From the NCBI GenBank assembly GCA_020723325.1, contig DYJD01000025.1:1-64000 (forward strand): a stretch of DNA of 64,000 nt, given 5' to 3'. The DNA is from Desulfosudis oleivorans. Lineage in GTDB: Bacteria; Desulfobacterota; Desulfobacteria; Desulfobacterales; SURF-7. A program made the translations under genes and the position numbers. Under the pieces are notes generated by a model. That model was given only the letters and a program-made list of their open reading frames with translations, did no database searches and was not told the DNA's origin. Below, one piece after another: positions 38,632 to 60,421 of this stretch (the stretch's first letter is position 1; each line of letters starts with the position of its first letter).

Positions 38632-38927
38632 ATTTTGACCTCATCAGATTCAAAAAGTCCCTCCAGGGGAGATGAGGACCTGCCAATAGAGCAGGAAATC
38701 CTGGTGAATAATCCAAATAATCGAAAGATTAAGATCATTCTCCATGTTCTTGGGCTATTCCGGGTTCTCATCACCTTCCCTTTTTCACTCGCCCGGCTGT
38801 ATTGAGCCCACTACCTCCAAGATGCATTTTTTCAGAATTTCTTGAAGATCGCTTCTGAAAATGTTAAATCACGAAAAAATCCCGCCGAAATAGCATTTAT
38901 CAAAAACCATAACCAAGGATGGAAGCC
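38632..38927. other. Noncoding stretch
   Basis: No gene or clear terminator is seen between the H1-like and small membrane protein genes. A short GGTGATGAGAACC-like inverted tract near 38760-38780 is not strong enough to call. Confidence 0.35.
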
Positions 38928-39149: not shown

Positions 39150-39151
39150 CA

Positions 39152-42907: not shown

Positions 42908-42968
42908 ATCGTCTCTCCTCTTCATATTTTTTGATCCTGTCCATCCTGTCGATCCTGTCTGAAAAACC

Positions 42969-44435
42969 CTAATTCAGCATATGCCGCACGGCTGCCTGGC
43001 CCACCCGTTCCGAAAGCATCTGTTTGAAATACTCGTCCCGCTGCTGGATGGCCTGGGCAAAATCGATGGTGTTGTTGAGTTCCAGAAGTTTGGCCTGGTA
43101 CAGGGCATAGATGCCGTGCATGAACGGCAGAAGATCCTCGCGCATTTTGCGCAGGTCCCCCATGATGGGTTCCACCAGCTCGATCTTGCAGGAGTGCTGG
43201 CCACCGCCGGAGTCCGTGCCCTTTTTGGCCCGGCTGACGGTCTCGGCCGTAAGGATGGTGTTGTCCATCAGGTTGTACAGATCCCCCAGCATGTAATAGG
43301 CGTAAAGAATGGAAACATAGTCGGCGTATTTGGCCGCGATCAGGGGCGGGGCGCCTGCCGTGCCGTCGATGTTGATCTCGGTGATCATGGCCTTGTAAAT
43401 GGGCGCGGGGATGATGTTCAGGAAATTTTCCTCGCTGCTCAGCAACGGCTGTTTGGCCATGACCTTGCCGCCGATGGCGCTCAGCATGGTGAACACCCAG
43501 TTCTTGAGATTGGGATAGGTCACGCCGTCGATGACGATTTGGTTCACCGCCTGGCAAGCGTCGGTGGTCTCGTCCCGGACCTGGACCGTGCCTTCGGCAA
43601 AGGTTTCCAGGATGGTGGCCGGTGTGTTTTGCGGGCAGCGGTCGATGCGGGCACTGCTCATGCCGTCCGGGCTGATCTTGATGTCGCCGATCAGGCCACG
43701 CACCAGGTCGATATAAGCGGCGGCATAGCCCCGTTTGGCGCCGAGATGGGCCAGTACCGAACCTTGAGTGAAAAAAATCTCCCGCAGATTCAAGGGGCAG
43801 CCGCCCGCAAGCTGGTTCATGCCGCCCACGCCGGCGGCCGCGGCTGTATCCTCCACTGAGCTTTCCTGGCCGTAGTTTTTCAATTCCTGCCACAGGCTGG
43901 ACACACCGGACTGCTGGGCGAACTCGGTCATGGCCTGGGTCTTGTCCTTGGACTCCACCTTGGGGTTGGCCGCGTCCACGATGGTGGCTGCGATGGCCTG
44001 ACCGGCCTTGCAGTCGTCATACTGGAGCTGGTTGACTCGGTCCACGATGGCCATGATGGATTTCATGCTGGTGGCCACCTTTTCGGACAAAACGCTCATG
44101 GCGATATCAAAAGCGAAAACCGCCGAGGCCGAGCCCATGGTGCGCTGGAGTTTGGCCACCAGGTAGTCGAACTGCATGAGATCCATACCTCCGAGGAACA
44201 GATCGATCCCGCCGCAGCCGGCCTTGAACTGGGGCTTGTTGATGGTCACGAGATAATCGTTGCCGTTCTGCCAGCGGGCCGAGAAATTGCCGAAGGAGGT
44301 GAACCCGCGCTTCTGGGTCTCGAAATGGTTGGGACCGGAGACGGTCTTTTGCTGCATCCAGTCGTCGATCCAGCCGGCATCGGCTGGACTTGGGGACAGG
44401 ATGAACACGAATAGACAGATTATGATGGGGTTCAT
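42969..44435 (-). CDS. traH: TraH, F-type pilus assembly protein
   Basis: A 488-residue exported TraH: signal peptide (ICLFVFILSPSPADA), GGIDLFLGGMDLM and a long helical body ending in FKQMLSERVGQAAVRHML. It works in the outer-membrane part of the channel. Four bases overlap the traC end. Confidence 0.93.
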   Translation of the reverse strand: MNPIIICLFVFILSPSPADAGWIDDWMQQKTVSGPNHFETQKRGFTSFGNFSARWQNGNDYLVTINKPQFKAGCGGIDLFLGGMDLMQFDYLVAKLQRTMGSASAVFAFDIAMSVLSEKVATSMKSIMAIVDRVNQLQYDDCKAGQAIAATIVDAANPKVESKDKTQAMTEFAQQSGVSSLWQELKNYGQESSVEDTAAAAGVGGMNQLAGGCPLNLREIFFTQGSVLAHLGAKRGYAAAYIDLVRGLIGDIKISPDGMSSARIDRCPQNTPATILETFAEGTVQVRDETTDACQAVNQIVIDGVTYPNLKNWVFTMLSAIGGKVMAKQPLLSSEENFLNIIPAPIYKAMITEINIDGTAGAPPLIAAKYADYVSILYAYYMLGDLYNLMDNTILTAETVSRAKKGTDSGGGQHSCKIELVEPIMGDLRKMREDLLPFMHGIYALYQAKLLELNNTIDFAQAIQQRDEYFKQMLSERVGQAAVRHMLN

Positions 44436-46963: not shown

Positions 46964-47430
46964 CGGTCCTCCCCCTGTTCAGGCTCCACGCCGTTCGAAA
47001 GCAGCCAGGAGGGCTCGCTGGCAAAAAAATAGATATAGCGGAACCCGAACATCTCGTTCTCCTGGCCGGTATAGGACATGACCAGCACCCGTACCACTTC
47101 CGGCGGCACCACGATGGGCGGTCGGTCCTCCTCGATCAGGGCCTTGAAGGTTTCCAGGCGCTTTTCCTGATACAGGGATTTTGAATCTGCTGAAGATTGG
47201 ATTTTCACGGATTTGGGCACTTGCCCATCCTGGTGCTCAGAACAAGTCTTGCATTCATCAGTCTCATTTTTTCCTGCAAGACTCCGCTGATAAGCGCTGG
47301 GGATGCTGGTACAGGCGCCTTCGTCCGTTTCCGGGCACTGGAAGGCGTCATCGTAAGGGTTGAACACGGCCTGGCAGCCGGTCAGCAGAACCAATAGGCC
47401 GGTGACGAGTAAAACATTCGGTTTCATCAC
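46960..47430 (-). CDS. traV: TraV-like outer-membrane lipoprotein
   Basis: A 156-residue lipoprotein with lipobox LLTGC, then FNPYDDAFQCPETDEGACTS with cysteine spacing of F-type TraV (CP...G.C). TraV anchors TraK and TraB at the outer membrane. It lies between traB and traC as in F. Confidence 0.82.
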   Translation of the reverse strand: MMKPNVLLVTGLLVLLTGCQAVFNPYDDAFQCPETDEGACTSIPSAYQRSLAGKNETDECKTCSEHQDGQVPKSVKIQSSADSKSLYQEKRLETFKALIEEDRPPIVVPPEVVRVLVMSYTGQENEMFGFRYIYFFASEPSWLLSNGVEPEQGEDR

Positions 47431-47432
47431 GA

Positions 47433-48686
47433 TTATCCTTTCTCCATGATTTCAAGGCCGGCGCCTTCGCTGATGACAATGGTCACCTCTTTGGTCGACC
47501 CGATCTCGATGACCGGCAGGGTCTGCTCGGCCAATTGCAGGTAGAATTTTTGGATTTCCTTGGTGGCCGAGGATATGCCCTGGCCCAGGCCGGCCTTAGC
47601 AATGGTCTCCACGTCCGTGTTCTTCAGTTGCGACTGGGGTTGGCCCAGGGCGCTGAACGTATTGGTTTTGGTTGAATCGCTCAAGGCATCCCCCATGCCG
47701 CCGATAAAACCGGCGAGGGCCGTGCGGGCGATGTGCACCCCCATTTTGGCCACCACCCGGCCTTTCAGGCCCACCTTGCCGTCCCCGTCCACGATGAAGC
47801 CCTTGATGCTCTGATCGATCACCGCGGCTCCGTTCCTGGCCACACAGGACAGGGTGTTCAAACGGATATGGACCCGTTCGTCCGCCAGGTTGCCGATGCC
47901 CGAGCCGATCACGAAACAACCTTTCAAATCCGCCTTGACCTTATTGGGCAGCACGGCCAGATCCTTGACCCGGAACAACAACGGCAGGGGGTTGCCCTTG
48001 GCGGCATTGGTAGTGGGCGCGGCCACCCCCGAAAGCAGCGTCGCCTCCATAAAAGAAGGGGGCAAATAAATCCGTTTTTTTTTACCGTCGTTTTCCGGGC
48101 CTTTCTTTTCCTCCACCTGGGGGGCCTGGACCATCTCTATCCCGCCGATGAATTGGGGCGCCTGTGATTTCTGAGCCTGGGGCGCGGTGTTGAAGAGGAC
48201 CTTGGGGATCTGGTCGCCTTTGCCGGTTTTTTCCATGGGCGGGGGCGGCGGGATGGCCAGGTCCGGCTTTTTGGGCAGCGGGATCGCGGTGGTTTCTTTC
48301 TGCGTGGATTTGGGCTGTGGAATGGAAACAACCTTCTCCTGGACCGGCGCTTTTTCGAGATTGGTCTGAAGGGCCTTGACCGCCTTTTTGAGTTCATCGG
48401 TCTCCCTTTTCTGAGCGATCAACAACTCCTCGGTCTTGGCGTACAGGGACTTTTCCAGCACGTTCTGGTCCATGCGCACTTCCGCAATGGGGTCGTCTTT
48501 TTTCTTGTCAGGGGTTTTGCCGCGTTTTGCATAATAGCCGATGATGAACAGGCCCAGCAGGGCCAGGATCAACCCCAAGGTGACAAGCCGTCTTTTGGAC
48601 GCAGGCTGCAAGGCATTGAACCTGCTTCTCCAAGTAACCGGCTTGTCGGACTCGCTGATGGTATCCGCAGTATTGATATCGTTCAT
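47433..48686 (-). CDS. traB: TraB, VirB10-like scaffold
   Basis: A 417-residue protein: one membrane segment (LVTLGLILALLGLFIIGYY), a coiled coil (EKSLYAKTEELLIAQ...), a proline-rich stretch (AIPLPKKPDLAIPPPPPM) and a C-terminal VirB10 barrel domain (FVIGSGIGNLADERV, GFIVDGDGKVGLKGRVV). It bridges inner and outer membrane. Confidence 0.92.
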   Translation of the reverse strand: MNDINTADTISESDKPVTWRSRFNALQPASKRRLVTLGLILALLGLFIIGYYAKRGKTPDKKKDDPIAEVRMDQNVLEKSLYAKTEELLIAQKRETDELKKAVKALQTNLEKAPVQEKVVSIPQPKSTQKETTAIPLPKKPDLAIPPPPPMEKTGKGDQIPKVLFNTAPQAQKSQAPQFIGGIEMVQAPQVEEKKGPENDGKKKRIYLPPSFMEATLLSGVAAPTTNAAKGNPLPLLFRVKDLAVLPNKVKADLKGCFVIGSGIGNLADERVHIRLNTLSCVARNGAAVIDQSIKGFIVDGDGKVGLKGRVVAKMGVHIARTALAGFIGGMGDALSDSTKTNTFSALGQPQSQLKNTDVETIAKAGLGQGISSATKEIQKFYLQLAEQTLPVIEIGSTKEVTIVISEGAGLEIMEKG

Positions 48687-48696
48687 GGTAAATCCT

Positions 48697-49959
48697 TTAT
48701 TTGGCAGCGGTCACACCGAGATGGGTTTCTTGGCCCGCCCGTTCGATGATGAACAACCGTGCAGGTCGATCCTTGGTGATGATCAGGCTGTCCAGGGTCA
48801 CGGCCAGGGGGCTTTCGGTCAGCCCGGGCACCAGAAACTGCTTTTCCAGAACCCGGCGTTCCTTTTCCCCATCGGCTGTCTTGAGCCGCAATTGGTATTC
48901 GTTGAGCAGGAGACCTTCACCCTCCACCCGGACGGTGCGCCGATGCACGATGTCAATCCAATCAAGCCCCTTGATGATCATGGTTTGCTTGCGGGGCATG
49001 ACCGTATAGGAATCCGGATAGTGTTCGGTAAAGGCTTGTTTGATGAGGGTCAGGATTTTCTTTTCAAAATCCTTGCCCGCGAACAGCGAAAGGTTCTTCT
49101 TAATGTCGCCGCCCTTGGAGGTGAGTTGAATCCACTGGGCCGGAATTTTCTTGGGAATACCGATGAGGGTGTAGACGTCCTTTTCGCTTCCGCAGACCAC
49201 ATAGAGTTCAATGGGGTCTTCCACCACGCCGGGTTTGGCGGTGAGGGAATCGGGACGGAGCTGCAGTTTGACAAAGGCGTTGGCGCCGTTGATCTTAGTG
49301 GTGACGCCTTTTTCCGCTGAAAAGATCACGTCCTTGACCGGCCGGTCGCCCATGCAGGTGATGCGGTTGATGTCGAGGTTGCTCAAATACACCTGGGTGG
49401 AGATCTCAGGCAACACCTTGACCGCGGATTTGGGCAGAACCCTTGCCTGGTCCGTGGCGGTTTCTGCCCGGTCGGCAGGGTCATATGGGATGGGTGCCGG
49501 CCGCAAATGCACGGCTTCCGGAGCCGAATCCGCTTGAGGAGGGGATTTGGAGGAATTCCGGGCAGCATCCTTTTTCACGGATTTTTTCAAGAAATGGGTG
49601 GTTGCAAAGCATGCGGCCGGATCATAGCGGACCAGTTCGGTCTTGAGGCCCTTGTCGAGCTGGCGGGAAAGTTTTTCCCGAATCAGAAAGGCGGCATCCG
49701 GGTCCTTGGCGCCGGTGTGGACCAGAGCATAGGCCTTATCGTCCAGGCAAATGCGCAGTTCCTGTTTGTCGATTTCTTCAGGCAGGGAAGTGATGGCTTC
49801 CTGGACAGCCGAAAGGTTGTCCTGTTTGTCGCCAATGGCCACCCAGTAAATGCTCTCCTTGCCCTGGTCGGCTGCCTTGGCGTTTGAAACGAATAGCAGC
49901 AGCAAACCAAAGACAAACCATACTTTATTGTTTTTCGATCTCTTCAATTCCGTCCACAT
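48697..49959 (-). CDS. traK: TraK, secretin-like transfer protein with N-terminal extension
   Basis: A 420-residue exported protein. The last ~230 residues are TraK (STQVYLSNLDINRITCMG, RRVLEKQFLVPGL), about the size of whole F TraK. Residues about 30-130 form an extra domain (IYWVAIGDKQDNLSAVQEAI, ELRICLDDKAYAL) that resembles a SPOR-like peptidoglycan-binding fold. The extension is an oddity of this element. Confidence 0.88.
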   Translation of the reverse strand: MWTELKRSKNNKVWFVFGLLLLFVSNAKAADQGKESIYWVAIGDKQDNLSAVQEAITSLPEEIDKQELRICLDDKAYALVHTGAKDPDAAFLIREKLSRQLDKGLKTELVRYDPAACFATTHFLKKSVKKDAARNSSKSPPQADSAPEAVHLRPAPIPYDPADRAETATDQARVLPKSAVKVLPEISTQVYLSNLDINRITCMGDRPVKDVIFSAEKGVTTKINGANAFVKLQLRPDSLTAKPGVVEDPIELYVVCGSEKDVYTLIGIPKKIPAQWIQLTSKGGDIKKNLSLFAGKDFEKKILTLIKQAFTEHYPDSYTVMPRKQTMIIKGLDWIDIVHRRTVRVEGEGLLLNEYQLRLKTADGEKERRVLEKQFLVPGLTESPLAVTLDSLIITKDRPARLFIIERAGQETHLGVTAAK

Positions 49960-50494
49960 AGAATCTCCCGCTTAGCATCTGGTATTTCATGAGATAGATT
50001 TTTTCCACCCGTTCCACTTCCTGGCCCTGGGCGGTCTGGATTCTCAAGCCCAGGATCTTGATCTCCTGCTTTTCCTGGTTGATACGTAAAAGCTGGGGGT
50101 AGAACATGCTGGTGATGGAAAGGCGTTTCACGTTCTCCTTCAGCTCGATCATCTTGCGGTTCAGGGCCGGATAATAGCGCGGCGAGGTCAGCTTCAGGAG
50201 ATCGCTGATCTGGTCGTCAAAAATGCCGGGGGTGTAATTCAACAGCAGGCCCATGGCATACTTTGTGAACAGCTCGATGTATTCCGTGTTCACGCTGCCG
50301 CCCTGGATCTCGATGCGCTTGTCCACCGCAGGCGGCAGGATCACCACTTTTTGATAGGTGACCGCCCGCAGCGCGATGATCGAAGAGATCACACAGCTTG
50401 CGCCGATCACGGTGATGACGAACTTCAGCAGCCGGTTTTCGGCCAGGAGGTTGTCGAACTTGTTGATGAACTTTTGGATGTGCATGGCCGTCAT
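49925..50494 (-). CDS. traE: TraE, inner-membrane assembly protein
   Basis: A 189-residue TraE: N-terminal membrane helix (LKFVITVIGASCVISSIIAL) and VirB8-like periplasmic part (EYIELFTKYAMGLLLNYTP, SGRFYVDGIEEI). It overlaps traK by 35 bases and shares ATGA with traL. Confidence 0.92.
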   Translation of the reverse strand: MTAMHIQKFINKFDNLLAENRLLKFVITVIGASCVISSIIALRAVTYQKVVILPPAVDKRIEIQGGSVNTEYIELFTKYAMGLLLNYTPGIFDDQISDLLKLTSPRYYPALNRKMIELKENVKRLSITSMFYPQLLRINQEKQEIKILGLRIQTAQGQEVERVEKIYLMKYQMLSGRFYVDGIEEIEKQ

Positions 50495-50757
50495 TCAGAA
50501 AAAGCGTTGGCGAAAGCCTCCGGATAGTGCTTCAGCTTCTTGATGCCTGAAAAATAAAGCATGTGCTTCAAAAATCCGGACGGATACTTGGCCTTGAGCC
50601 GCGAATAAAGCATCGGCCCCAACAAGAAGAGAATCCACAATACGCCGTGGAAGATCGACGCCGTCAGAAAGAAAAAAATGATCATGGCCAGCTCGTCGCT
50701 CTCAAACCAGAGCACCTGGACCGGTGCGGACAGGTATTGTGGAAATCTCTCCGCCAT
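50491..50757 (-). CDS. traL: TraL, small pilus assembly protein
   Basis: An 88-residue protein with two hydrophobic segments (ELAMIIFFFLTASIFHGV, LFLLGPMLYSRL) and a GFLKHMLYFSGI C-terminus, as in F TraL (VirB3-like). Correct place between pilin and traE. Confidence 0.88.
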   Translation of the reverse strand: MAERFPQYLSAPVQVLWFESDELAMIIFFFLTASIFHGVLWILFLLGPMLYSRLKAKYPSGFLKHMLYFSGIKKLKHYPEAFANAFSE

Positions 50758-50770
50758 TGTCGCACCCCCT

Positions 50771-51097
50771 TCAAATAACCAGCCCGAGGCTGGTCACCAT
50801 GGAATCCGCATTGAGCAACACGGCGCCGCCGATGATGGCCATGCTGGCGAGTCCCAGTTTTTGTTGGATGGCGGCCACCGCGCCGGCCACCATGGCGCCG
50901 GCACCGGCCACGAACCCGATTGGGCCGTTCAGGATCTTGTTGACGCCGATGTCGTACACGTCCCAGGCAAAATCCGTGGGACCGGTGGGCACGGTTACGG
51001 CGGCGGCCGTGGCAGCGGTGCCCAGGATGATGCCGGCGGTGATGATGAAGGTTTTTTTTCTGCCGATTTTTTGGATGGTGTTTACAAGCCTTTTCAT
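50771..51097 (-). CDS. traA: TraA-like conjugative pilin
   Basis: A 108-residue prepilin: long basic leader (MKRLVNTIQKIGRKKTFII) with hydrophobic stretch ending in ATAAAV, then two short helices (IGFVAGAGAMVAGAVAAI and LASMAIIGGAVLLNADSM) flanking a loop, the TraA fold. The TrhF-type peptidase at 16387 is the likely processing enzyme. Encoded first in the traA-L-E-K-B-V-C-H-G order. Confidence 0.82.
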   Translation of the reverse strand: MKRLVNTIQKIGRKKTFIITAGIILGTAATAAAVTVPTGPTDFAWDVYDIGVNKILNGPIGFVAGAGAMVAGAVAAIQQKLGLASMAIIGGAVLLNADSMVTSLGLVI

Positions 51098-51119
51098 AAT
51101 GCGTTTTCTCCTGTTGGGG

Positions 51120-51749
51120 TTAATTGGGTTGATCAGTACCGCGGGTAAATTCGATTTCGACTCTTCGGTTCTCTGCCAAGTTGCTTGTTGCGCGGTAACA
51201 GCATTTAGGCCTGGCTTCTATTTTTCTAACCGGCATGCCGTGTTGTGATAGCCAGGCGGCCACTGTCCTTGCCCGGTCCTGGGCCAGGCGTTGATTCACC
51301 GTAAAACTTCCTATTTGGCAGGTATAGCCGGTCACCCGCTGAACCGGCCCTTTACTCTCTATAATAAACAAGCGGTCAAGTTTTTGGGTTTCTGCCGGGG
51401 ACAGGGCGCTCGATCCAAGGTCGAAATGGATGAAGACTGTTTCCAGCATTCGGATGGGAGCATCGATTGTTGACTTGATTGGTTGGGGAGAAACATCATT
51501 GATCTCCCGCAGAGCCTTGCTGTTCAAAGATGTTGATGAAAACGATTGAGTTGGACCCGGATCGGCATAGGGTTTGGGCACGATCACATAGGTACGCTGT
51601 TTCGCACTCTTTGCCGGGCCTTGGTCGAATCGATATGTTTCTTGACCGATGGTGTGAGTGGCCGATACTCCGGCATCTGCAAAAACATCGGACAGAAGAA
51701 TCATATTGGTCATCAAAACCAAAAGGAAAAGTATTTTTATCCTGTTCAT
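51120..51749 (-). CDS. OmpA-like peptidoglycan-binding protein
   Basis: A 209-residue exported protein: signal peptide (ILFLLVLMTNMILLSDVFA) and C-terminal OmpA-like domain (IHFDLGSSALSPAE, NQRLAQDRARTVAAWL, ENRRVEIEF). It could anchor the transfer channel to the cell wall. Promoter-like element copy 4 lies inside its coding sequence at the LDRLFIIE codons. Confidence 0.85.
   Translation of the reverse strand: MNRIKILFLLVLMTNMILLSDVFADAGVSATHTIGQETYRFDQGPAKSAKQRTYVIVPKPYADPGPTQSFSSTSLNSKALREINDVSPQPIKSTIDAPIRMLETVFIHFDLGSSALSPAETQKLDRLFIIESKGPVQRVTGYTCQIGSFTVNQRLAQDRARTVAAWLSQHGMPVRKIEARPKCCYRATSNLAENRRVEIEFTRGTDQPN
51358..51381 (-). promoter_or_regulatory. Promoter-like element, copy 4, inside the OmpA-like gene
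   Basis: 22 of 24 bases match the five-copy consensus on the minus strand (CTTGACCG, four bases, TTTATTATAG). It lies 260 bases upstream of the pilin start and faces it, so it could act as an internal promoter for traA and the genes beyond. Confidence 0.55.
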
Positions 51750-51773
51750 TCTGTCAATCCTGTCTAAAAAAAA

Positions 51774-52922
51774 TCAAATCCGCTCCAAATCCTTGAGCCA
51801 TCTGCCTTCCTGGTCTCGGGGATGGTTTCTTGCCGATTCTCCCAAAGGTTCAAAATCCGCTGCCGCGAATACGAAAAACCACTTTTTCATGGGCTTGAAA
51901 TCATCCTTGAACCGCAGCCGGTATTTTTCATTGCGAGCTTCCGGAATTCTGGATGTGATCAGACGCGGCAAGTCCTGACGGAAATCCGCTGGGGCAAGGC
52001 CCTGTTCGGCCCGTATTTGATTCAAAGCGACTTCCACAATCGACGGTGAAAAGTAGACCTCATCGCCGAAACAAAACCCATCAAAGCCCATGCAGGTGAT
52101 TTGGGTACGAAGGACTGCGATAAATTTTTCTTTGGAAAACCAGGCGTCCCATTGGGTGTCATCCAATTCCAGACTATTTTGGGGATCTCCGTCAGTTTCT
52201 GGAGGACAAATAGACTGACCCGCACCAATCGTTTGATCTTCGACAGAAACCCGGGCCAGTTCTTTTCGTCTTGCGATCCGATCTGCCTGGACCAGGACAG
52301 GCAGAATCGGATTGTTGGAGGAAAATTTTTTCAGTCCGTAATCCGCGTGGTGCAGCCTGACTGCCTCCACAATCTGTTCCCGGTCGCGCAACTGGCCGAT
52401 GCGTTTTTGCAGCCACACCGCACCGGTATAGGAATGGGGCATGTTCGCAATGGACGCCGACGGATGCTTGCCCATGTCATGGAAAAGGGCGGCGAGGAGG
52501 ATCTTACCCGCATGCATCTGAAAGTCGTTCTCTTTTGCCCGTAACAAATCCACCGCTTCCCGAGCAACGGTCAGGGAATGATCCAGCAAGGTTATCCGGC
52601 TAAGAACCCGGTATTGTCTCGGGGTTTCTGAATCGGCGGCGGCTATGGAGGAACATGACTCCAGACTCTCGATTTCCAGGAGCAGAGCTTGAATCGCCTG
52701 GAACATGGGCGCTGTCATGGTACTCCGAAATGGCCGCACATATTCCAGCCAAAAATTTTCAATGTCTTGGTTTTCAAAAACCGGATCAGCGCCGGAACGA
52801 GGGGCGTCCTGGTCTTTTATGGCCCCTTGATCTTCCGGCCGTTCCTGCCAAAAGGCCCGGGCAAGATCGCCCAGCCGGATCTGCCTTGGGGTTTTGGACC
52901 CTCCAAACAAATTGAATTTCAT
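51774..52922 (-). CDS. Second HD-domain protein
   Basis: A 382-residue soluble protein related in layout to the HD protein at 25200: SRITLLDHSLTVAREAV, LLAALFHDMGKHPS and VRLHHADYGLK give the HD metal site; the C-terminal half (YFSPSIVEVALNQIRAEQGL) may be a winged helix as in TraI_2 proteins. It lacks the membrane helix of the first. Either could be the relaxase. It follows the small gene at 52950. Confidence 0.65.
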   Translation of the reverse strand: MKFNLFGGSKTPRQIRLGDLARAFWQERPEDQGAIKDQDAPRSGADPVFENQDIENFWLEYVRPFRSTMTAPMFQAIQALLLEIESLESCSSIAAADSETPRQYRVLSRITLLDHSLTVAREAVDLLRAKENDFQMHAGKILLAALFHDMGKHPSASIANMPHSYTGAVWLQKRIGQLRDREQIVEAVRLHHADYGLKKFSSNNPILPVLVQADRIARRKELARVSVEDQTIGAGQSICPPETDGDPQNSLELDDTQWDAWFSKEKFIAVLRTQITCMGFDGFCFGDEVYFSPSIVEVALNQIRAEQGLAPADFRQDLPRLITSRIPEARNEKYRLRFKDDFKPMKKWFFVFAAADFEPLGESARNHPRDQEGRWLKDLERI

Positions 52923-52949
52923 TGCGACCTCCTTCTTGTCTTTTTCCTG

Positions 52950-53375
52950 TCAGATTTTTTCCGGATTCCCGCCTGTGTTCACCGTCTCCTTGTTTTCTTC
53001 ATCTTTTTCACCCAGCACTTGCATCAACGCCCTGGGGGTCCTGTAACGCACATTGGTGAGCCGGCAGATCTCGGCAACGATCCGGTGGAGTTGCACCAGG
53101 GCCTCGTTATAGGCGTTCAGCAGCGGCAGGGCCTCCTCCGGCGTCAGGGTGATCATGATGCGGTTGCGGAGACGCCGGATTCCCTGATCCGCATACCGGG
53201 CAAGATCCGTGAGCGGATAGGTGTCCGGGGTGTTGTGCAGAATGACCCGGGCGTTTCTTTCCTTGGCCAGTTCCACATAGTCGGTTTTGGTCCTCGGCCC
53301 CTTGGGTTCCCCCGAACCGACGGATATCGCTGATTTCTTGGTCTTTTCACCGGTTGTGAGCGTTTCTTTGGGCAT
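52950..53375 (-). CDS. Small basic protein, operon leader gene, unknown
   Basis: A 141-residue protein, Lys/Arg-rich N-terminus, then helices (YVELAKERNARVIL, YNEALVQLHRIVAEICRLT). No family recognised. It is first in the 39-53 kb transfer operon, 84 bases after promoter-like element copy 5, next to an HD relaxase candidate, so a relaxosome accessory role is possible. ATG follows GAAAGGAGGGAATTTTGAG. Confidence 0.65.
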   Translation of the reverse strand: MPKETLTTGEKTKKSAISVGSGEPKGPRTKTDYVELAKERNARVILHNTPDTYPLTDLARYADQGIRRLRNRIMITLTPEEALPLLNAYNEALVQLHRIVAEICRLTNVRYRTPRALMQVLGEKDEENKETVNTGGNPEKI

Positions 53376-53458
53376 CTCAAAATTCCCTCCTTTCGCGTTT
53401 ACTTGACGACGTGTGTATTACTGAAAATAAACGGGCATCATTTTTCGCACCCTTCATT

Positions 53459-53482
53459 CCCATAATAAACAGGCGGTCAAGC
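53459..53482 (-). promoter_or_regulatory. Promoter-like element, copy 5 (main transfer operon)
   Basis: CTTGACCG, four bases, TTTATTATGG on the minus strand: 22 of 24 consensus bases. It sits between the divergent transfer operon and the NusA-like gene, 84 bases before the first minus-strand gene and 10 bases before the plus-strand ATG. Confidence 0.6.
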
Positions 53483-53492
53483 GGAGGCGGAT

Positions 53493-54251
53493 ATGATTTT
53501 TGAAAGGATCGAAGATCACGAAAAATCGGCGAAAACAGTCGAAGGTTTACCCGCAACAACCCAACAAGCCCTGGCCTTGTCCATCGAAAACGCCGCCCGG
53601 CGCTTTTACCAGGTATCGGACTGCCTGGTGGATATAGAGCTGCGGACCATCAACCTCGTGTTCCAGATGCCCCGGCATCAACGGATCATCGAGCAGCTTG
53701 GTTTAATCGACCAGGTCCTGGCCGATGATATCCTGCCGGTGACGCTGAAGCTGGCGGCCCTGCCGAAAACCGTGAAGGCCGCCGCCTGGTTGCTGTTTCC
53801 GGAGACGCTCCGGGAATTGCAGATCAGAGACGTGTTTTCCATGTGGAAAAGACAAGCCCGGCAGATCATCAGCGGCGCCATCCGTAGACGCCTTTCGGAC
53901 CATGTGGAAGTGGATCTGAACGGCGCCGTGGGCATCCTGCCTCAAAACGCCTGGGTCCCGACCGAAACGCACCTGTATCACCCCGGGAGCGTAATGTTTT
54001 TCCAGGTTTCGGCTGTGAAACGCAGTCCCAGTCACGTTTTCATCCGTTTGTCCCGGTCTTCGATAAATCTGCCTGCCTTGTTGCTGGAATTTTATCTGCC
54101 CATGCACAAGTTCGTCTGCATGCGGCGATTCATCGGACAAAAAAGCCTGGTCCGCACAAACGCCAAGGTCTGGGACAAGGATGTTATCCGTGTCCGCGAG
54201 AAAGTCAGCCGGGAATTGCTGGGCGAAATCATCGAACTGCGACCGTTTTAA
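53493..54251 (+). CDS. NusA-like S1/KH transcription factor
   Basis: A 252-residue protein. Residues about 122-190 read as an S1 domain of the NusA type (QIISGAIRRRL, VEVDLNGAVGILPQ, ETHLYHPGSVMFFQVSAVKR, VFIRLSRSSINLPALLL), including the NusA-like ILP..-W-P and LSR segments; a KH-like stretch follows. The N-terminal 110 residues are compatible with a diverged NusA N-terminal domain (LALSIENAARRFY). NusA controls pausing, termination and antitermination. Housekeeping NusA is about twice as long, so this is an element-specific short relative. First of five plus-strand control genes; GGAGG lies five bases before the ATG. Confidence 0.6.
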   Translation: MIFERIEDHEKSAKTVEGLPATTQQALALSIENAARRFYQVSDCLVDIELRTINLVFQMPRHQRIIEQLGLIDQVLADDILPVTLKLAALPKTVKAAAWLLFPETLRELQIRDVFSMWKRQARQIISGAIRRRLSDHVEVDLNGAVGILPQNAWVPTETHLYHPGSVMFFQVSAVKRSPSHVFIRLSRSSINLPALLLEFYLPMHKFVCMRRFIGQKSLVRTNAKVWDKDVIRVREKVSRELLGEIIELRPF

Positions 54252-54342
54252 ACGCAACCGTTCGGAATCAATATCAACCTTGTTTTCAAAACAGAAAGGA
54301 ATCCTAAAAATGAACGCTCCCAATCCTCAAGGAGGACCATCC

Positions 54343-55485
54343 ATGGCGAATAATAAAAAATTCGGCCGGGATCTTTCCATCGCCGCAGGCAACCCGTTTA
54401 TCCCCTACAAGATCTTTTTCGGCGGCTACTTACCGGAGCCGATCATGGAATCCACCACCCTCACCGCCACGGAAAAAGTCTGCTGGGCCAAGCTCAACCA
54501 GTTTTCCGGCAAGAACGGTTTTTGTTACCCATCCCTCAGTCTGATGGCCAAATCCATCGGCGTGTCGGTCCGCCAGGTCATTCGGGTATTGAACGGCCTG
54601 GTGGAAAAAGGGTTTATCCAGAGGAAAACACCCAATGACAGTGAAAAAGGCCAATACCAGTCAACTTGTTATTCTTTCTTGTGGCATACCAATTTCGACG
54701 ATGCTGTGCTGATGGATCAGGACAACTCGTCGGACAAAATATCCATATCTGTGGCCACTTCAAATGACCATGCCATGAATAACGCCACCCCTTCTGTCAT
54801 CGGTATTATGCCCCCTTCTGACATGGATGCCATTAAGGCCCCTGGCCGGAACATGTATGTCAGTACCCCTCCTGATGCAGATGTCATACCCCCTCCTGTC
54901 ATAAACGTCACCCACCCTCCTGACACCTGTGTCAGGCACCCTTCTGTCATGGATGGCACACGAAATGGATCATATATAAAAGAAAATATAGAAGTGGATC
55001 ATATGAAAAGGAAAGGGGAAGGGAATCCCTTAGGATTCCCTTCCCCTTTTTCTAGGAAAACCCCCTCCCAGCCCCTGACGGCTTTTGAAAAAGAAAAATC
55101 CGCCCTGCTGGAGCGATATTCCGACTCCCAACGGATCACCATCGAATTCGGTATCGCCGGCCTCAAGAAAACCCGTGCCAATGGAAACATTCCGGATGAG
55201 GTCCTTCTTACCGAGTTGCGGCGATGGAATGAAGTACCTGTGGAGCATGTCATCCAGGGGATTCGCTTGTATGTCGGCAGGAGATGCTATCTGCGCAAAA
55301 AGAACGAGCACTATCTATGGGGTATCATCCGGAATCTCTGCCGTTCGGCTTCCAAAGAGGAATCCGACCCGGATTACCAGCCCGAACCATTGCCTGTTCA
55401 AGATATCGAGGCTTTCACTACTATCCTGGAATGGCTCCAGGAAACCACAGGAGAAAATCATGATTCGATCGCTCAAGAGTTGTGA
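54343..55485 (+). CDS. Replication initiator-like helix-turn-helix protein with internal iterons
   Basis: A 380-residue protein. The N-terminal winged-helix (TATEKVCWAKLNQFSG, GFCYPSLSLMAKSIGVSVRQ, LVEKGFIQRKTP) is like phage and plasmid replication initiators; the C-terminal third is helical. Between them an eight-residue proline-rich repeat is encoded by DNA with 24-bp periodic repeats (54791-54950), followed by an AT-rich tract and a perfect hairpin, an origin-like layout inside the gene as in lambda O. Start set at 54343 after AAGGAGGACCATCC; an ATG at 54310 also has a fair site. Confidence 0.7.
   Translation: MANNKKFGRDLSIAAGNPFIPYKIFFGGYLPEPIMESTTLTATEKVCWAKLNQFSGKNGFCYPSLSLMAKSIGVSVRQVIRVLNGLVEKGFIQRKTPNDSEKGQYQSTCYSFLWHTNFDDAVLMDQDNSSDKISISVATSNDHAMNNATPSVIGIMPPSDMDAIKAPGRNMYVSTPPDADVIPPPVINVTHPPDTCVRHPSVMDGTRNGSYIKENIEVDHMKRKGEGNPLGFPSPFSRKTPSQPLTAFEKEKSALLERYSDSQRITIEFGIAGLKKTRANGNIPDEVLLTELRRWNEVPVEHVIQGIRLYVGRRCYLRKKNEHYLWGIIRNLCRSASKEESDPDYQPEPLPVQDIEAFTTILEWLQETTGENHDSIAQEL
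54791..54950 (+). repeat. Seven-unit 24-bp iteron array inside the initiator gene
   Basis: The decamer CTTCTGTCAT or close variants starts at 54791, 54815, 54839 (degenerate), 54869, 54893, 54917 and 54941. Spacing is 24 bp except one 30-bp step. Iterons of this kind bind the initiator; the repeat also encodes an eight-residue motif, so selection at either level is possible. Confidence 0.75.
54968..55010. other. AT-rich tract beside the iterons, possible unwinding element
   Basis: A run rich in ATATA/AAAATATA with two GATCATAT words lies directly after the iterons in otherwise GC-rich DNA. At replication origins such tracts are opened first. Predicted from composition and position only. Confidence 0.45.
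55012..55049. repeat. Perfect 17-bp inverted repeat within the initiator gene
   Basis: AAAGGGGAAGGGAATCC (55012-55028) pairs perfectly with 55033-55049 across a CTTA loop and is followed by T's. It could be a strand-initiation hairpin of the origin or an intrinsic terminator that limits transcription into the sigma, xis and int genes. Confidence 0.7.
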
Positions 55486-56071
55486 AGACAATTTGTCGAC
55501 CATGGATAAGGCTGAGAAAAACTACGGCCCGGCACCGAAAAACCGTCAACACGACATGGAAAACTTTGTGAAAGACCTGGAACCTGTCATCAAAGCCATT
55601 ATTCGGCGCTATCAGCCCCATATCCGGGGGTACGAATTTGAGGATTTGATGCAGGAAGGCTATGCCGCGGCCCTGGTGGCGGCCAAAGTCTGGAAACCCG
55701 AGCCCGGCAAGGCCGGTATCAAGCCCTGGGTATGGCTCATGATCAAATATAACTTCAACAGATTATCCCAAAAGACCCCACGCCATGAGGTCTTTTTCGA
55801 GGATCTCGACATGGAGATCGGCCCGGAGGAATACGAACAGGATCAGCTTGCCGCGGAGCGATCCGCCGAGGAAGACCGTGAAGAAATCATCGCAATGCTG
55901 TTTCGTTCCCTGCCGAAATACAGAAACTACCTTGAGGCCGTGCTGGAGGAAAGCCTGATCAATGCTGCAGCAGCCAGGAATCTTGGGCTCTCCAGGCAAC
56001 GGATCAACCAACTGCGAAATGAGGTTCGCAATCATATTTCGCGCCCTGAGAATAAGACATCCCCAAAATAG
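55460..56071 (+). CDS. RNA polymerase sigma factor, sigma-70 family, element-encoded
   Basis: A 203-residue protein with region 2 at about 40-105 (IKAIIRRYQPHIRGYEFEDL, MQEGYAAALVAAKVW, KPWVWLMIKYNFNRLSQ) and region 4 helix-turn-helix at about 143-195 (MLFRSLPKYRNYLEAVLEE, INAAAARNLGLSRQRINQLR). Region 1 and region 3 are absent or minimal, as in small alternative sigma factors. The ATG at 55460 follows AGGAGAAAATC and overlaps the initiator stop by 26 bases. It is the natural candidate to read the five-copy promoter-like element; that link is inferred. Confidence 0.78.
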   Translation: MIRSLKSCEDNLSTMDKAEKNYGPAPKNRQHDMENFVKDLEPVIKAIIRRYQPHIRGYEFEDLMQEGYAAALVAAKVWKPEPGKAGIKPWVWLMIKYNFNRLSQKTPRHEVFFEDLDMEIGPEEYEQDQLAAERSAEEDREEIIAMLFRSLPKYRNYLEAVLEESLINAAAARNLGLSRQRINQLRNEVRNHISRPENKTSPK

Positions 56072-56094
56072 CAATCAAAAAGGGATCATTGACA

Positions 56095-56451
56095 ATGCTG
56101 GAATGTAAAAATATACTCACCCCCGAGGAAGTCGCCCAGTATCTGCGCAAAAGCGTCAGTTGGGTCTATAAAAACGCCGAGTTACTGGGTGCGCGAAAGC
56201 TCGGAGGGTCCTTATTCTTCCCATCAAAGGAGGACCTATATGAGCATCTATTCGAAAAAAGGAAAGGGATGGAGGTACGACTTCACCCTGAACGGGAACC
56301 GGTATACAGAAGCCTGGTTCAAGACGAAACGCGAAGCCAATCTGGCCGAAGCAAAAAAAAGAGAGGAGATAGAAAATCCATTACCACCAATATCGAAAAC
56401 CCAGCCGGAATTGACTGGAACAGGCATCACCTTTTTGGGACTGGTGAATAG
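56095..56451 (+). CDS. xis: AlpA/Xis-type excisionase with long overlap into integrase
   Basis: A helix-turn-helix of the MerR/excisionase type fills the first 50 residues (ILTPEEVAQYLRKSVSWVYKN, ARKLGGSLFFPSKEDLYEHL). Such proteins direct integrase toward excision. The frame continues 70 codons past the integrase start, ending at 56451; the extra tail is basic and unlike other Xis proteins, so it may simply be frame left open by the overlap. Start at the ATG at 56095. Confidence 0.75.
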   Translation: MLECKNILTPEEVAQYLRKSVSWVYKNAELLGARKLGGSLFFPSKEDLYEHLFEKRKGMEVRLHPEREPVYRSLVQDETRSQSGRSKKKRGDRKSITTNIENPAGIDWNRHHLFGTGE

Positions 56452-57358
56452 ACGGCTTGACCATGTCAAGGCCTACAATAGCAAAAGGCACTATTCGGAT
56501 TATAAGTATATGGCGCGGAGATGGGCTAAAGAGTGGAAGCAGTTCGAGTGCGATGATATTCATACGGAGATGGTTCGCAAATATCTGCTCAAGCGATTGA
56601 AAGATAGATCCGCATTTACCGCCAATAAAGATCTAAGATATTTGAGAGCGCTCTTCAATTTTGCCATGCATCCCACTCGAGATTGGATTAAAACCAATCC
56701 AACCCGCGGTATTGAGTTTTTTCCGACGGAAAAACGGATCAAATATGTACCGTCAAAACAAGATGTGCTTCGGGTCATCATGGCTGCTGAACCGGAAACC
56801 CAGGATTATCTCTGGACCATTGCTCTGACAATCGGGCGCATGGGGGAGATCAATCGGCTGTGCTGGCAGGATGTCGATTTTGAAACCAGCAACCTGACGT
56901 TGTACACGCGAAAAAAGAAAGGCGGCCATTTGACACCCCGCCGAATTCCCATGACCGGCAAGCTTTTTGACATATTGTTCAGACGTTTCTCAAAAAGGGA
57001 TAAGGCAAAGCCATGGGTGTTTTGGCATCGGTATTGGCATCGTACGGACAGACAATGGATTGACGGTCCTTATCGTGACCGAAAAAGAGTAATGACGACC
57101 TTATGCAAAAAGGCCGGTGTAAAATATTTTCGTTTTCATGCCCTGCGCCATTTCGGGGCCACCATGCTGGATGCTGAGAAAGTTCCCATTGGAGCGATTC
57201 AACGCATCCTGGGTCATGAAAATCGGACGACAACGGAAATTTATTTGCATTCTGTGGGCGAAGGTGAAAAATACGCCATGGATGTTCTGGAGAAGGGTTT
57301 CAGTGAAAAGTCTCACACAGAGTCTCACACAGAAACAAAACTGGGTCAGACCATATGA
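56240..57358 (+). CDS. int: Tyrosine integrase of the ICE
   Basis: A 372-residue site-specific recombinase: arm-binding N-terminus (GWRYDFTLNGNRYTEAWFKT), core domain, and catalytic R200 (IGRMGEI), H300-x-x-R303 (HALRHFG), H326 (LGHENRT) and nucleophile Y335. Start at 56240 after AAGGAGGACCTAT. It ends 19 bases before the tRNA-Arg 3' fragment at 57378, the usual int-att arrangement. Confidence 0.93.
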   Translation: MSIYSKKGKGWRYDFTLNGNRYTEAWFKTKREANLAEAKKREEIENPLPPISKTQPELTGTGITFLGLVNRRLDHVKAYNSKRHYSDYKYMARRWAKEWKQFECDDIHTEMVRKYLLKRLKDRSAFTANKDLRYLRALFNFAMHPTRDWIKTNPTRGIEFFPTEKRIKYVPSKQDVLRVIMAAEPETQDYLWTIALTIGRMGEINRLCWQDVDFETSNLTLYTRKKKGGHLTPRRIPMTGKLFDILFRRFSKRDKAKPWVFWHRYWHRTDRQWIDGPYRDRKRVMTTLCKKAGVKYFRFHALRHFGATMLDAEKVPIGAIQRILGHENRTTTEIYLHSVGEGEKYAMDVLEKGFSEKSHTESHTETKLGQTI

Positions 57359-57849
57359 TCTAACCCATTGATATTTATGGCGCGCCTGAAGGGATTCGAA
57401 CCCCTGGCCTACGGATTAGAAGCCCAAATTTTTGTTTGATAAAAAATACAGTAATTAAAGCTAATTGATTCTCAGTCATATTTTTACTTCACTTTTGGTT
57501 TTATTTGAAACTCTTTTGAAAAATTTGACCTTGACGGGCACAATTTAGGCACAATGATTTGTGATCAGCGATCCAATCGCTAAAACTTAATCTTGCAAAT
57601 ATTTTCCACAAATTTTGGCTATACGCAGTATAAAATTTGGAATCCTGCACCATTCAGCTTCTTCTTTGATCACCAGACCGAAACTTGATAATCCGAGGCT
57701 TTTAAACATGGATTCGCTCCTTTTTGTGTTTATGCTATAATTGCCTCAGGTTCTCAATGATGTCAATAACCGTATGGCCGATTAAGTGCTTTGCCAGCAG
57801 GGGAGGCGCGGTAGGTATTGCGGCGTATATTTGCGCCCGCAAAAAAGGT
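57359..57849. other. Junction region between element and chromosome
   Basis: Contains the tRNA-Arg fragment (next entry) and about 425 bases without a convincing gene. AT-rich sequence 57425-57720 shows no tRNA 5' half. Codons on the minus strand near 57735-57830 read as a plausible protein end but have no start or motif. Confidence 0.5.
57378..57424 (-). tRNA. 3' fragment of tRNA-Arg(TCT), probable attachment core
   Basis: On the minus strand the sequence runs from the anticodon loop CTTCTAA through the T arm (GGGG-TTCGAAT-CCC) to acceptor CAGGCGC, discriminator G and encoded CCA. The D arm and acceptor 5' strand are missing, so this is only the last 47 bases, the segment duplicated when integrases use tRNA genes. 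The remaining tRNA should lie to the right but does not. Confidence 0.75.
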
Positions 57850-59775
57850 TTACTGTCGCATGATCCGCTCGTCACCGATCCGCAGGGTAAAACCGATTTT
57901 GTCCAGATAATCGAATACCGGCGCGCCCCCCCAGCGGCCATAGCCGAGGATTTCCGTGCTGTCCTTCAGGGTGATCCTGCCTTTGGTTTCTATTGCGGAT
58001 TTGATACGTTCCTTGATGACTTCAAGGGCCGCAGGAAGCAAAAAGCGGTTGTCCCGCAGCCGGATCAACTGGTTTGCGGCGGCGAGAAATTCAAGGCTTT
58101 TTTGAATTTCCGGTTTGTCCGGCTTTTGTTGATGGTGCTTCCAGAAGGAGTCGGCGCTGAAGGGCGACAAGCCGATTTGACGGGCGTGTTCCAGCAGCCT
58201 TTGAAGCATCTGTTCTTGTTCAGGCGGCAGTCCGGGCGGCATCCCGTTGTCGAAAAGGGGGTTGAGAAAACCTCCGTCGCCCTTTTTCAGTTTTTGGTCC
58301 CGGCACAGATCATTGATGACCGTTTGCAGGAACCGCGTTTCCAGGTCAGCGGGCAGATGGTCGGCGATTTCCTTTTCATTAATGCTTGTTTTCATGGGAT
58401 CACTTTGGAAGACCCTTTCCACCACCATTAAAACACGGGTTTTGAGCCCTTGCCAGGCTGCCGCATCCACGGCGCCCATGCCTTTGAGGTAAACAAGTGC
58501 GCCTTTATTCACACGCACATTGATCGCGGCCTCGAATTCCAGGCGCGACCAACCGGTTTTGGCGGACAAGTCCGAGGCCCCAAAAGGCCGGGTTTGATTT
58601 GGATGGAAGACCGAATCCAGGTAGGCCGGCAAGGCCCTGTTTTGCAAGGCCGATAGCAAAGGTATGATTTCCACTGATTGGGCCTTGCGATATTTCTTCG
58701 CCATCGTTTCCAAAATAACGCCGCCACCCAGGATCGTAGTGCGGTTCATCAGCGAGATGACAAAGGGGTCCCGGGGCATGACCGGCGCCGGCGTAGCCAA
58801 ACGGAACTGCACCAGACCCGTATCCCCCGGGCCGAGCGTTTCCCGCTCCATCATGACCGCCACGGCGTTGATGATTGCCGTGCCGACATGCAGCTTCAGG
58901 CGCGTCCGATTTTTCAAAACCAATGCGGCGTCGGCCAAAAGACGCAGTTCCGCGTTCAGAAGGTGGTGGGCGCAAGCGCCCTGGGGGGCGGTCAGGGCCA
59001 TGCCCCGCGCAATATTCTTTACCGCCACTTTATGCAGGTTGATGCCGACGCGGCGGCCCGGAAAAGCCTTTTGAATTTTTCGACCATGGGATTCCAGTGA
59101 ACGGGCACGGGTGGCGATACCGGCCGGTAGCAGTTGCAGCGTGTCGTCTTCGCATAGTTTTCCGGACAGAACCGTTCCGCTGACCACGGTTCCGAAACCT
59201 TTCAACACCCGCACCTGGTCGATCCACAAGCGGAAAGGCGCTTCGGAAAGCTTCATGCCCGGCTCTCCCGCCATGTCCTGAATCCGGTTGCGGATGGCTT
59301 GCAAGCCGGCCCGAGTCGGCGCGGAAAAGGGTAAAATCGGACAGCCCTCCAGAAAACTCCCCCGCAAGGTTTCCTCGATTTCCAGCATGGCGATTTCCAG
59401 GGTCTCCTGATCCACCAGATCGGTTTTGCTCAACACCACAAAACCCTTCCGCACCTGGAAAAAATTCAGGATTTCGAGATGCTCCCGGGTCTGGGGCATG
59501 ATGCCGTCATCGGCGGCCACCACCAGAATCGCCATGTCCACGGCACACAGGCCCCGGATGGTGTTTTTCAAATAGTCCGTATGACCGGGGACATCCACAA
59601 CGGCAATGGTGCCCTCAGATGATTCCATCAGGGGGGCGACGCCCATATCGATTGATAAACCCCGGAATTTTTCATCAGGTCTGCGGTCTGTATCTACGCC
59701 TGTGAGACAACGCACCAGGGAGGTCTTGCCGTGGTCAACGTGGCCGGCGATGCCGAGGGTGGAATAACGGTCCAT
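57850..59775 (-). CDS. selB: SelB, selenocysteine-specific elongation factor
   Basis: A 641-residue translational GTPase: GHVDHGKTS at 11-19, DVPGHTDYLKN, VLSKTDLV, then EF-Tu-like domains 2-3 and a C-terminal tail of winged helices that binds SECIS RNA. It delivers Sec-tRNA to UGA codons. Start at the ATG at 59775 after GGAAG. Directly downstream of the Sec tRNA gene, forming a selenocysteine locus on the chromosomal side. Confidence 0.95.
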   Translation of the reverse strand: MDRYSTLGIAGHVDHGKTSLVRCLTGVDTDRRPDEKFRGLSIDMGVAPLMESSEGTIAVVDVPGHTDYLKNTIRGLCAVDMAILVVAADDGIMPQTREHLEILNFFQVRKGFVVLSKTDLVDQETLEIAMLEIEETLRGSFLEGCPILPFSAPTRAGLQAIRNRIQDMAGEPGMKLSEAPFRLWIDQVRVLKGFGTVVSGTVLSGKLCEDDTLQLLPAGIATRARSLESHGRKIQKAFPGRRVGINLHKVAVKNIARGMALTAPQGACAHHLLNAELRLLADAALVLKNRTRLKLHVGTAIINAVAVMMERETLGPGDTGLVQFRLATPAPVMPRDPFVISLMNRTTILGGGVILETMAKKYRKAQSVEIIPLLSALQNRALPAYLDSVFHPNQTRPFGASDLSAKTGWSRLEFEAAINVRVNKGALVYLKGMGAVDAAAWQGLKTRVLMVVERVFQSDPMKTSINEKEIADHLPADLETRFLQTVINDLCRDQKLKKGDGGFLNPLFDNGMPPGLPPEQEQMLQRLLEHARQIGLSPFSADSFWKHHQQKPDKPEIQKSLEFLAAANQLIRLRDNRFLLPAALEVIKERIKSAIETKGRITLKDSTEILGYGRWGGAPVFDYLDKIGFTLRIGDERIMRQ

Positions 59776-59797
59776 AAATCTTCCCAAAAAATCGAGT

Positions 59798-59888
59798 TGG
59801 AAGGGGCAAGGGGAATCGAACCTCCTCCTCGATTTTCAGGCGAGGCCGTCGGTTTTGAAGACCGCGAGGTGCCCAGCACCATTGCCCC
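59798..59888 (-). tRNA. selC: tRNA-Sec(TCA)
   Basis: On the minus strand: 5' GGGGCAA pairs with TTGCCCC near the 3' end; anticodon stem-loop CGGTCTTCAAAACCG presents TCA; a long variable arm (GGCCTCGCCTG...CGAGGAGG) and T loop GGTTCGATTCC follow. Length about 91 and the long variable arm are typical of selenocysteine tRNA, and selB follows immediately. Confidence 0.9.
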
Positions 59889-60421
59889 TGGTTGCGGCTA
59901 ATATCTAACGATCGCAGGCGGGGCCGGAAAACATTTCTAAGGATAAGGGTTGTTCTTTCAGCCCCCTGAAGGACGCCAAAGACCGGCGCCCGGTTCTATT
60001 GCGATTTCAGGTGAAGCGAAAAAACAAGCGCACTTTTCATCTCCTTCGTGTGTTGTGTCGGTGCTCGACCGTTACGCTCACTAAATCAAGTGAGACCTTG
60101 AAGTCAAATTGATTGTTTCAATGAATTTTTGATTATGTATTTGAATTATCAATTTGATTAATAGACGATTTCCATGTAGAGATTTTATCTTTGATTTTCC
60201 ATGAATACCGCCATTGAGAGGTTTGCATGCATCGATTTTTCGGCTTCACCTGAGGTTGCGAACGGACACCTGCCCGGGTCCGGCAGGGGTGGAATAGCCT
60301 GAGAAATCGATTTTTCTTCTGAATACCATTGTTCCCTTCTTCAGTCTATTCCGCCTTCCTGCGGGTCTGCTTCGCATCGTAAATATTTCCGGCGCGTCCG
60401 GCTTGATGAAAGGAAGGAAAC
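59889..60421. other. Intergenic region with divergent promoters
   Basis: About 530 bases between selC and the HdrD-like gene. AT-rich TTGATT/TTATGT and TATTTG tracts at 60110-60200 could serve promoters; a GTGAGCGTAAC-type inverted repeat flanks 60070-60095. A good ribosome binding site (GAAAGGAAGGAAAC) lies at the right end. No gene is seen. Confidence 0.45.

Follow-up and report, generated by a model that had tools for sequence, protein, structure and literature searches.

NusG paralogs, RNA antiterminators and sigma factors are all known cargo of mobile elements. For the plasmid sigma factor SigN, activation of its own promoter and of a regulon on the plasmid has been reported (PMC6751061), NusG paralogs in the tra operons of plasmids have been proposed as antiterminators (PMC7593976), and LoaP is reported to antiterminate by antagonising NusA (PMC12691694). 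Together with the antitermination systems conAn of pLS20 (PMC8955417) and canT of Tn916 (PMC11658703), these reports make element-encoded sigma factors and antitermination in conjugative elements already known. A NusA paralog would add to these; we found no report of one on a mobile element in open-licence PMC papers, which is weak evidence of absence, as only such papers were covered. Here we describe a candidate from the first 64,000 nucleotides (nt) of contig DYJD01000025.1 of Desulfosudis oleivorans, order Desulfobacterales (hereafter the window, meaning the whole stretch), which contain what is, to judge from its genes, an F-type (MPF_F) conjugative element, namely an integrative and conjugative element (ICE).

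An earlier note on this DNA had claimed that the ICE carries a NusA-like factor, a replication initiator and a sigma-70-family factor in one row of genes, and the row was confirmed as it was seen there. On the plus strand, the gene of the NusA-like protein of 252 amino acids (aa; 53493–54251) is followed by that of a replication-initiator-like protein (54310–55485) and that of a small sigma factor of 189 aa (55502–56071). A small protein without known family, h141 (52950–53375, minus strand), is encoded divergently from the NusA-like gene. On balance, and with modest confidence, we favour the reading that the ICE carries a self-driven transcription-control module, in which the sigma factor would act on the element's own promoters and the NusA-like protein with h141 on elongation. 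The families of the proteins, their conservation and co-occurrence, and a repeated promoter-like element with its position ahead of operons are what the data show; the pairing of promoter and sigma factor, the binding to polymerase and the direction of the effect are our inferences.

The module resembles each of the described systems in part. Like NusA, the window protein has an N-terminal domain (NTD), S1 and KH1 in this order, and it ends where KH1 ends; unlike NusA, it lacks the GXXG loop and KH2 and is an element-borne paralog beside the host NusA. With the plasmid NusG paralogs (NusG-SP, RfaH type) it would share the role of a mobile element's own elongation factor for long tra operons, but it belongs to the NusA family and not to NusG (PMC7593976). 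As with SigN of plasmid pBS32 of B. subtilis, the sigma factor is encoded by the element and would have its own regulon, including the promoter of its own gene; the available part of the SigN report mentions no NusA relative, and the promoter-like element of the window differs by a gap of 7 bp (PMC6751061). The likeness to conAn and canT would lie in conjugation operons with element-encoded processive antitermination, which we propose here, whereas positions 38000–57900 of the window show no clear excess of terminators (PMC8955417 and PMC11658703).

By its homology, the protein encoded at 53493–54251 is a true, divergent NusA paralog. NCBIfam TIGR01953 (NusA) matched its residues 74–198 with E = 3.2e-9, at 36 bits far under the curated cut-off of 253, and four further members of the family were matched singly by the same model (E 8.6e-10 to 1.1e-10); a Pfam scan gave no match at E ≤ 1. 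A single-sequence search of PDB returned just two sequences at E ≤ 1, both of them NusA (E = 5.5e-5 and 3.2e-4), and with a profile of 12 family sequences all 14 PDB sequences at E ≤ 1e-3 were NusA. Profile–profile comparison with an alignment of 28 host NusA proteins (hhalign) gave a probability of 99.2 and E = 1.5e-19 over 248 columns. This alignment begins at column 1 and includes the N-terminal RNA-polymerase-binding domain, and S1 is covered by residues 74–198 of the TIGR01953 match and by the PDB profile matches. The protein runs to the end of KH1 and terminates there, so that KH2 is missing, and the segment holding the GXXG loop is absent from the alignment. The NusA call of the earlier note is borne out by the TIGR01953, PDB-profile and profile–profile matches; its description as an S1/KH protein holds for the S1 and KH1 homology, with a KH1 lacking the GXXG segment, without KH2, and with an NTD in addition.

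The AlphaFold2 model built from four sequences is confident in the N-terminal part only, with a mean predicted local distance difference test (pLDDT) value of 60. The modelled NTD aligned with NusA 6j9e_F with Z 6.6 and a root-mean-square deviation of 3.0 over 88, and in a Foldseek search with the model the top seven rows were NusA or NusA-holding complexes (best E 1.4e-5), with low TM-scores for the whole model. The host's own full NusA is encoded on contig C90 of the same genome, and in the tree 13 element proteins form one group separate from the 28 host NusA proteins (support 100/100); long branches make placements within the element group unsure. R212 and G215 (KH1 part) and E245 (KH1 end) are invariant among 12 members. 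The dN/dS values of six NusA-like pairs were 0.10, 0.11, 0.15, 0.18, 0.26 and 0.44, those of 0.11 and 0.15 being rough, with dS > 1, and that of 0.44 coming from the two copies of G126, of which one lacks a start codon within reach.

The NusA-like family was found in 12 of the 389 genomes of the class, and all 12 are among the 19 genomes of the same set that have a related F-type TraC at E ≤ 1e-80 (Fisher p = 2e-18); these rows are not independent, and some genomes are incomplete (G006, 66%). The 12 genomes remain from 16 rows after removal of four doubtful ones: G350, in which NusA is cut by the contig end (judged by eye), G370, a partial match in a long frame, and G193 and G254, with 59-residue matches that contain internal stops and are possible remnants. 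In the 20-kb stretch of G193 no other window protein was matched. Among the seven TraC genomes without the NusA-like protein, six had one profile match each in frames of 451–462 aa, as host NusA would, and G006 had none. The same 12-sequence profile, which has no host NusA inside, matched 350 of 395 genomes of the phylum at E ≤ 1e-6; among the matches listed, nearly all were in long frames, which is what host NusA would give, with many of them spanning about positions 4–242 of 247, and the only new short relative listed was that of G592, whose genome belongs to another family of this phylum. Searches of plasmids with four members of the NusA-like family had the plasmid of Desulfosarcina sp. 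BuS5 as their sole find. A first scan of genome contigs gave no relative, a second gave three loci on contigs as long as those of G056 and G325, and scans of viral contigs gave none. A phage match (MT839133) was rejected: its frame of 357 aa is NusA-like and has, by eye, both KH parts, and the record is unverified.

The NusA-like family has its constant partner in h141. The profile of h141 was built, like that of the sigma factor, from NusA-like neighbourhoods, which favours the result and counts against our reading; it matched in 12/12 NusA-like genomes of the class vs 0/7 TraC genomes without the NusA-like protein, and h141 was also present in G592, so that it accompanies the NusA-like gene in 13/13 NusA-like genomes checked. 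The two genes are divergent in the window, BuS5 and others and stand in tandem in G354, G367 and the third G287 locus; both G367 and G354 have the pair between TraG and TraD. In G034 and G336 h141 adjoins the sigma gene, directly following or overlapping it, and does not face the NusA-like gene. Family and fold searches with h141 gave nothing convincing, a null that excludes nothing, and its structure model consists of helices only (mean pLDDT 61).

The protein encoded at 55502–56071 is, by its family matches, a small sigma-70-family factor, as had been claimed. Region 2 was matched by Sigma70_r2 of Pfam above the cut-off (E = 9.4e-7), and TIGR02937 (sigma70-ECF) gave E = 1.3e-10 at 41.1 bits, just under its cut-off of 42.9, in a match that reaches residue 174 of 183 queried and includes the helix-turn-helix (HTH) of region 4. 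With a profile of seven sequences, 20/20 PDB sequences at E ≤ 0.1 were sigma factors, and the C-terminal part of this profile matches RpoS chains. Six relatives are 20–46% identical; in the five scanned, TIGR02937 matched below its cut-off (E 0.014 to 1.1e-6), and the BuS5 plasmid copy carries a sigma-70 factor annotation. In some relatives region 4 seems, by eye, to be reduced to little beyond the recognition helix. Two pairs gave dN/dS of 0.34 and 0.23, the latter with dS > 1.

The sigma profile matched in 8 of the 12 NusA-like genomes vs none of the 7 other TraC genomes (p = 0.013). Among 17 NusA-like loci, a profiled sigma gene lies within about 4.2 kb in nine and 18 kb away in G092. In G592, where the NusA-like gene and h141 are present, a different sigma-like gene stands beside the NusA-like gene (RpoS region 4, E = 5.9e-6), and no sigma gene is nearby in six loci (two in G126 and one each in G287, G354, G367 and the fragmentary G056). 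The pairing of the NusA relative with a sigma factor that the earlier note had proposed thus holds for nine loci, more loosely for the tenth, and for an eleventh with a different gene, while the place of the constant partner belongs to h141. Directly upstream of the sigma gene there is an HTH_36 protein in the window and a ParB-like HTH protein in BuS5, and HTH proteins were seen by eye in G336, G034 and G325. At this place G287 has an NtrC-type AAA+ frame instead of the HTH gene (mostly by eye).

Side-by-side reading of operon leaders in the window revealed a shared sequence, CTTGACCGnCC...TATTAT. This bipartite promoter-like element, TTnACC-N7-TATTAT, has seven copies in the window by the pattern TT[GCT]AC[CG]-N7-TATTA[TC], six of them ahead of operons, which supports a promoter-like element that the transfer operons and the NusA-like/rep/sigma operon have in common. 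CTTGACG-N7-TATTAC (53402–53421, plus strand) lies 71 nt before the start codon of the NusA-like gene; the other copies are on the minus strand. CTTGACC-N7-TATTAT (53462–53481) lies 86 nt before h141 and the tra genes that follow; further copies are located 263 nt ahead of the TraA-like gene and within the OmpA-like gene (51361–51380), 42 nt before the gene of an actin-like protein (ALP) that leads towards TraD (31593–31612), and 69 nt before traN of the row traN-traU-trbC-traF (20904–20923). A weaker CTTTACC-N7-TATTAT (11307–11326) precedes by 394 nt the gene of a 307-aa protein leading towards the SSB, DUF6094 and SNF2 genes, and a pattern match of the form TTTACC-N7-TATTAT near the left end of the ICE (442–460) reads outward and is present in a second copy of the element too.

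These copies exceed expectation. In the window, 4 sites lay within 3 mismatches of one copy vs 0.01 expected, and in 40 Markov-resampled copies there were 0 matches for the window (7 observed) and for G336 (3 observed) and at most 2 for BuS5 (3 observed). The second copy of the element in the same genome has four elements by pattern. The three strict elements of the BuS5 plasmid stand before h141, an HD-domain-like gene and a vitamin-K-reductase-like gene ahead of traN; G336 has three elements and G034 one, of the TTCACC type. A pyrimidine followed by A occurs 5–6 bases past TATTAT in 18 of 21 sites, a set chosen by the author, counted by hand and including two near-copies, and this looks like a start point. 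With spacers of 3 to 23 tried in turn, the eight sigma-carrying elements (513 kb) had 14 matches at 7 and 0–3 at each other length; at spacer 7, the four NusA-like elements that lack sigma (188 kb) had 0 matches and four module-free sets (213 kb) had 1. Since sigma-carrying elements had served for writing the pattern, this contrast is weaker than the counts suggest, which also tells against our reading. The single match in G218, which has no module, is at about chance level. These groups do not include the second copy, the second G287 copy, G592, the second G126 copy and G056, which have spacer-7 counts of 4, 0, 0, 0 and 1, respectively.

De novo clustering, with three shuffles for each set, gave a largest cluster of 5 neighbours in the window (shuffles 2–3), 4 in G336 (1–2) and 3 in the second copy (1–2). 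For G034 the values were 5 vs 4–5, which is not above chance by number, and none of the clusters in the two sigma-carrying copies of G287 was above shuffles. In sets that lack the module, unrelated sequences likewise clustered above shuffles (C10, 6 vs 3; G218, 3 vs 1–2; pooled small contigs, 3 vs 1–2), and the clusters of BuS5 (17 vs 10–12) and G057 (49 vs 36–43) are A and T runs. Alignment of the whole leader with that of G287 gave nothing clear. Scanning of positions 38000–57900 found 24 sigma-70-like promoters vs 14.3 expected (standard deviation, s.d., 3.7).

Overall, the NusA-like protein, h141 and the sigma factor are all present wherever the promoter-like sequence occurs, with sigma undetected in G056. 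In the NusA-like elements that lack the sequence, it is sigma, of these three, that is absent too, and three elements have sigma without the sequence. Relatives keeping the promoter-like element without the pair of NusA-like and sigma genes were not found in the stretches read, except for the fragmentary G056.

On the reading we favour, the small sigma factor, third in the row, would direct polymerase to the element's own promoters, the parts of which would be a −10-like TATTAT, the TTnACC box seven bases upstream and the likely pyrimidine-A start 5–6 bases downstream. A promoter-like element stands ahead of the sigma factor's own gene row, so the switch would be self-reinforcing. The N-terminal domain of NusA binds polymerase, and through the retained domain the NusA-like protein would bind elongating polymerase in place of host NusA and, with h141, alter pausing and termination along the long transfer operons. 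Retention of the polymerase-binding domain and loss of much of the RNA-binding half suggest competition with host NusA; since much of that half is gone, the protein would most likely be an antiterminator or a NusA antagonist. The 7-bp gap and the shortened region 4 of some members fit an unusual, closer sigma contact. Only tentatively do we suggest that, in the promoter read by the sigma factor, the upstream box is one helical turn nearer to the −10 than known sigma-70 promoters have it, and that the sigma factor is coupled to a NusA paralog and h141, which reprogram the elongation of transfer operons.

Several observations weigh against this. A sigma factor usually reaches over 16–18 bp between boxes, and the gap here is 7 bp. 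The pattern scan found no strict element in the sigma-carrying G057, G092 and G325, and G287 has weak variants only, at matching places before h141, traN and ALP. The sigma matches in G092 and G325 are partial, one in G325 having an internal stop; the fragmentary G056 has a NusA-like gene and one element without a detected sigma, and the single strict match of G034 is within the Markov-copy maximum of 2. In the tree, the NusA-like proteins of the sigma-less G126 and G367/G354 share a clade with those of the window and G287 (100/99) and group weakly among themselves (89/56); these elements may therefore be one clade, and the joint absence of sigma and promoter-like element may be one event. The structure model of the NusA-like protein is weak outside the NTD, and the terminators in 38000–57900 (29 vs 24.5 expected, s.d. 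5.2) are without clear excess.

The upstream box could possibly belong to an activator or repressor, and this is made more plausible by the BuS5 plasmid sites 19880 and 25862, which are, by eye, near-perfect inverted repeats around TATTAT. Host sigma-70 would then read TATTAT, a near match to its −10 hexamer, a DNA-binding protein of the element would assist or hinder it at the TTnACC box or palindrome, and the element sigma would serve otherwise. The gap, wrong for a sigma −35, and the HTH proteins directly upstream of sigma speak for this explanation, but no one HTH family holds that place across all motif-bearing elements, and the four sigma-less NusA-like elements lack the motif despite having the NusA-like protein and h141; we regard it as possible and rather doubtful. 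A similarly unlikely explanation is that the NusA-like protein is a plain dominant-negative competitor of host NusA, which relieves NusA-dependent termination of foreign DNA without element-specific loading or a link to sigma. The kept NTD, the loss of GXXG and KH2 and the six loci with no sigma of this family nearby agree with it, but the constant pairing with h141 suggests a more specific complex, and the three invariant residues of the KH1 part and end also tell against it. The absence of a convincing family for h141 and the location of the pair between TraG and TraD in two genomes would suit a role of both proteins other than in transcription, e.g., in conjugation or replication as factors that bind RNA or DNA; this we consider improbable, as the homology extends beyond S1 alone and spans the NTD.

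Should the reading of a self-driven module be correct, the element may run its own gene-expression programme inside the host, and the module may show one way for conjugative elements to evade the host's control of termination. With only NTD, S1 and half a KH left, this natural NusA would put to the test what such a half can do by itself, and the sigma factor with its odd promoter-like element is small enough for rebuilding in vitro.

The surroundings agree with the claim that the NusA relative and the sigma factor are carried on a conjugative element, directly upstream of xis and int. The middle gene of the row, HTH_36/DnaD-N-like and of 391 aa from the ATG chosen, supports the replication-initiator call by its matches to HTH_36 (E = 7e-12) and to the PHROG "replication initiation protein" (E = 1.9e-11). 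The plus-strand order NusA-like, replication-initiator-like, sigma continues with an excisionase-like (xis-like) HTH_17 protein (56095–56451, match below cut-off) and a tyrosine integrase (56240–57358, family match). On the minus strand, h141 is followed by an HD-domain gene, the OmpA-like gene and then F-type transfer genes identified by family matches (39152–51097): TraA-like, TraL-like, TraE-like, TraK, TrbI/TraB, TraV, TraC, TraH and TraG, of which TraA, TraL and TraE are names that we presume from family resemblance. Elsewhere on the element there are TraN, TraU, TraF, a TraD-type coupling protein, a second HD protein, the actin-like protein, SSB, a RadC-type JAB protein, a weak ArdC-N match, a DUF6094 methyltransferase and an SNF2-type protein; trbC was named by similarity to a BuS5 gene annotated so. 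The MPF_F set of TraC, TraH, TraG, TraU, TraN, TraK, TraV and TraF is thus present together with a coupling protein.

Two further elements occur in the same genome. The apparent second copy runs from about 86.3 kb of contig C1 via C14 to C11, with contig joins that are inferred and DNA mostly 92–96% alike; its rep (part present) and sigma are 88% and 94% identical to those of the window, its NusA-like gene falls in the C14–C11 gap, and the C11 stretch that was read did not show the window's integrase behind its rep-sigma pair. A third F-type element, with a TraC of 49%, lies on contig C10 at about 13–32 kb; the 56 kb read contained no match to the NusA-like protein, h141 or sigma, and the profiles of sigma and h141 likewise found nothing on C10. 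NusG-family matches in this genome are on contigs C69 and C5, and none on the window's contig C1.

Short direct repeat runs of the ATCCTGTC type occur at window positions 16353, 27990, 42923 and 51728, several of them at transfer-gene junctions. A selB-like gene (by eye) and tRNA-Sec (57850–59889, minus strand) adjoin the integrase end of the element.

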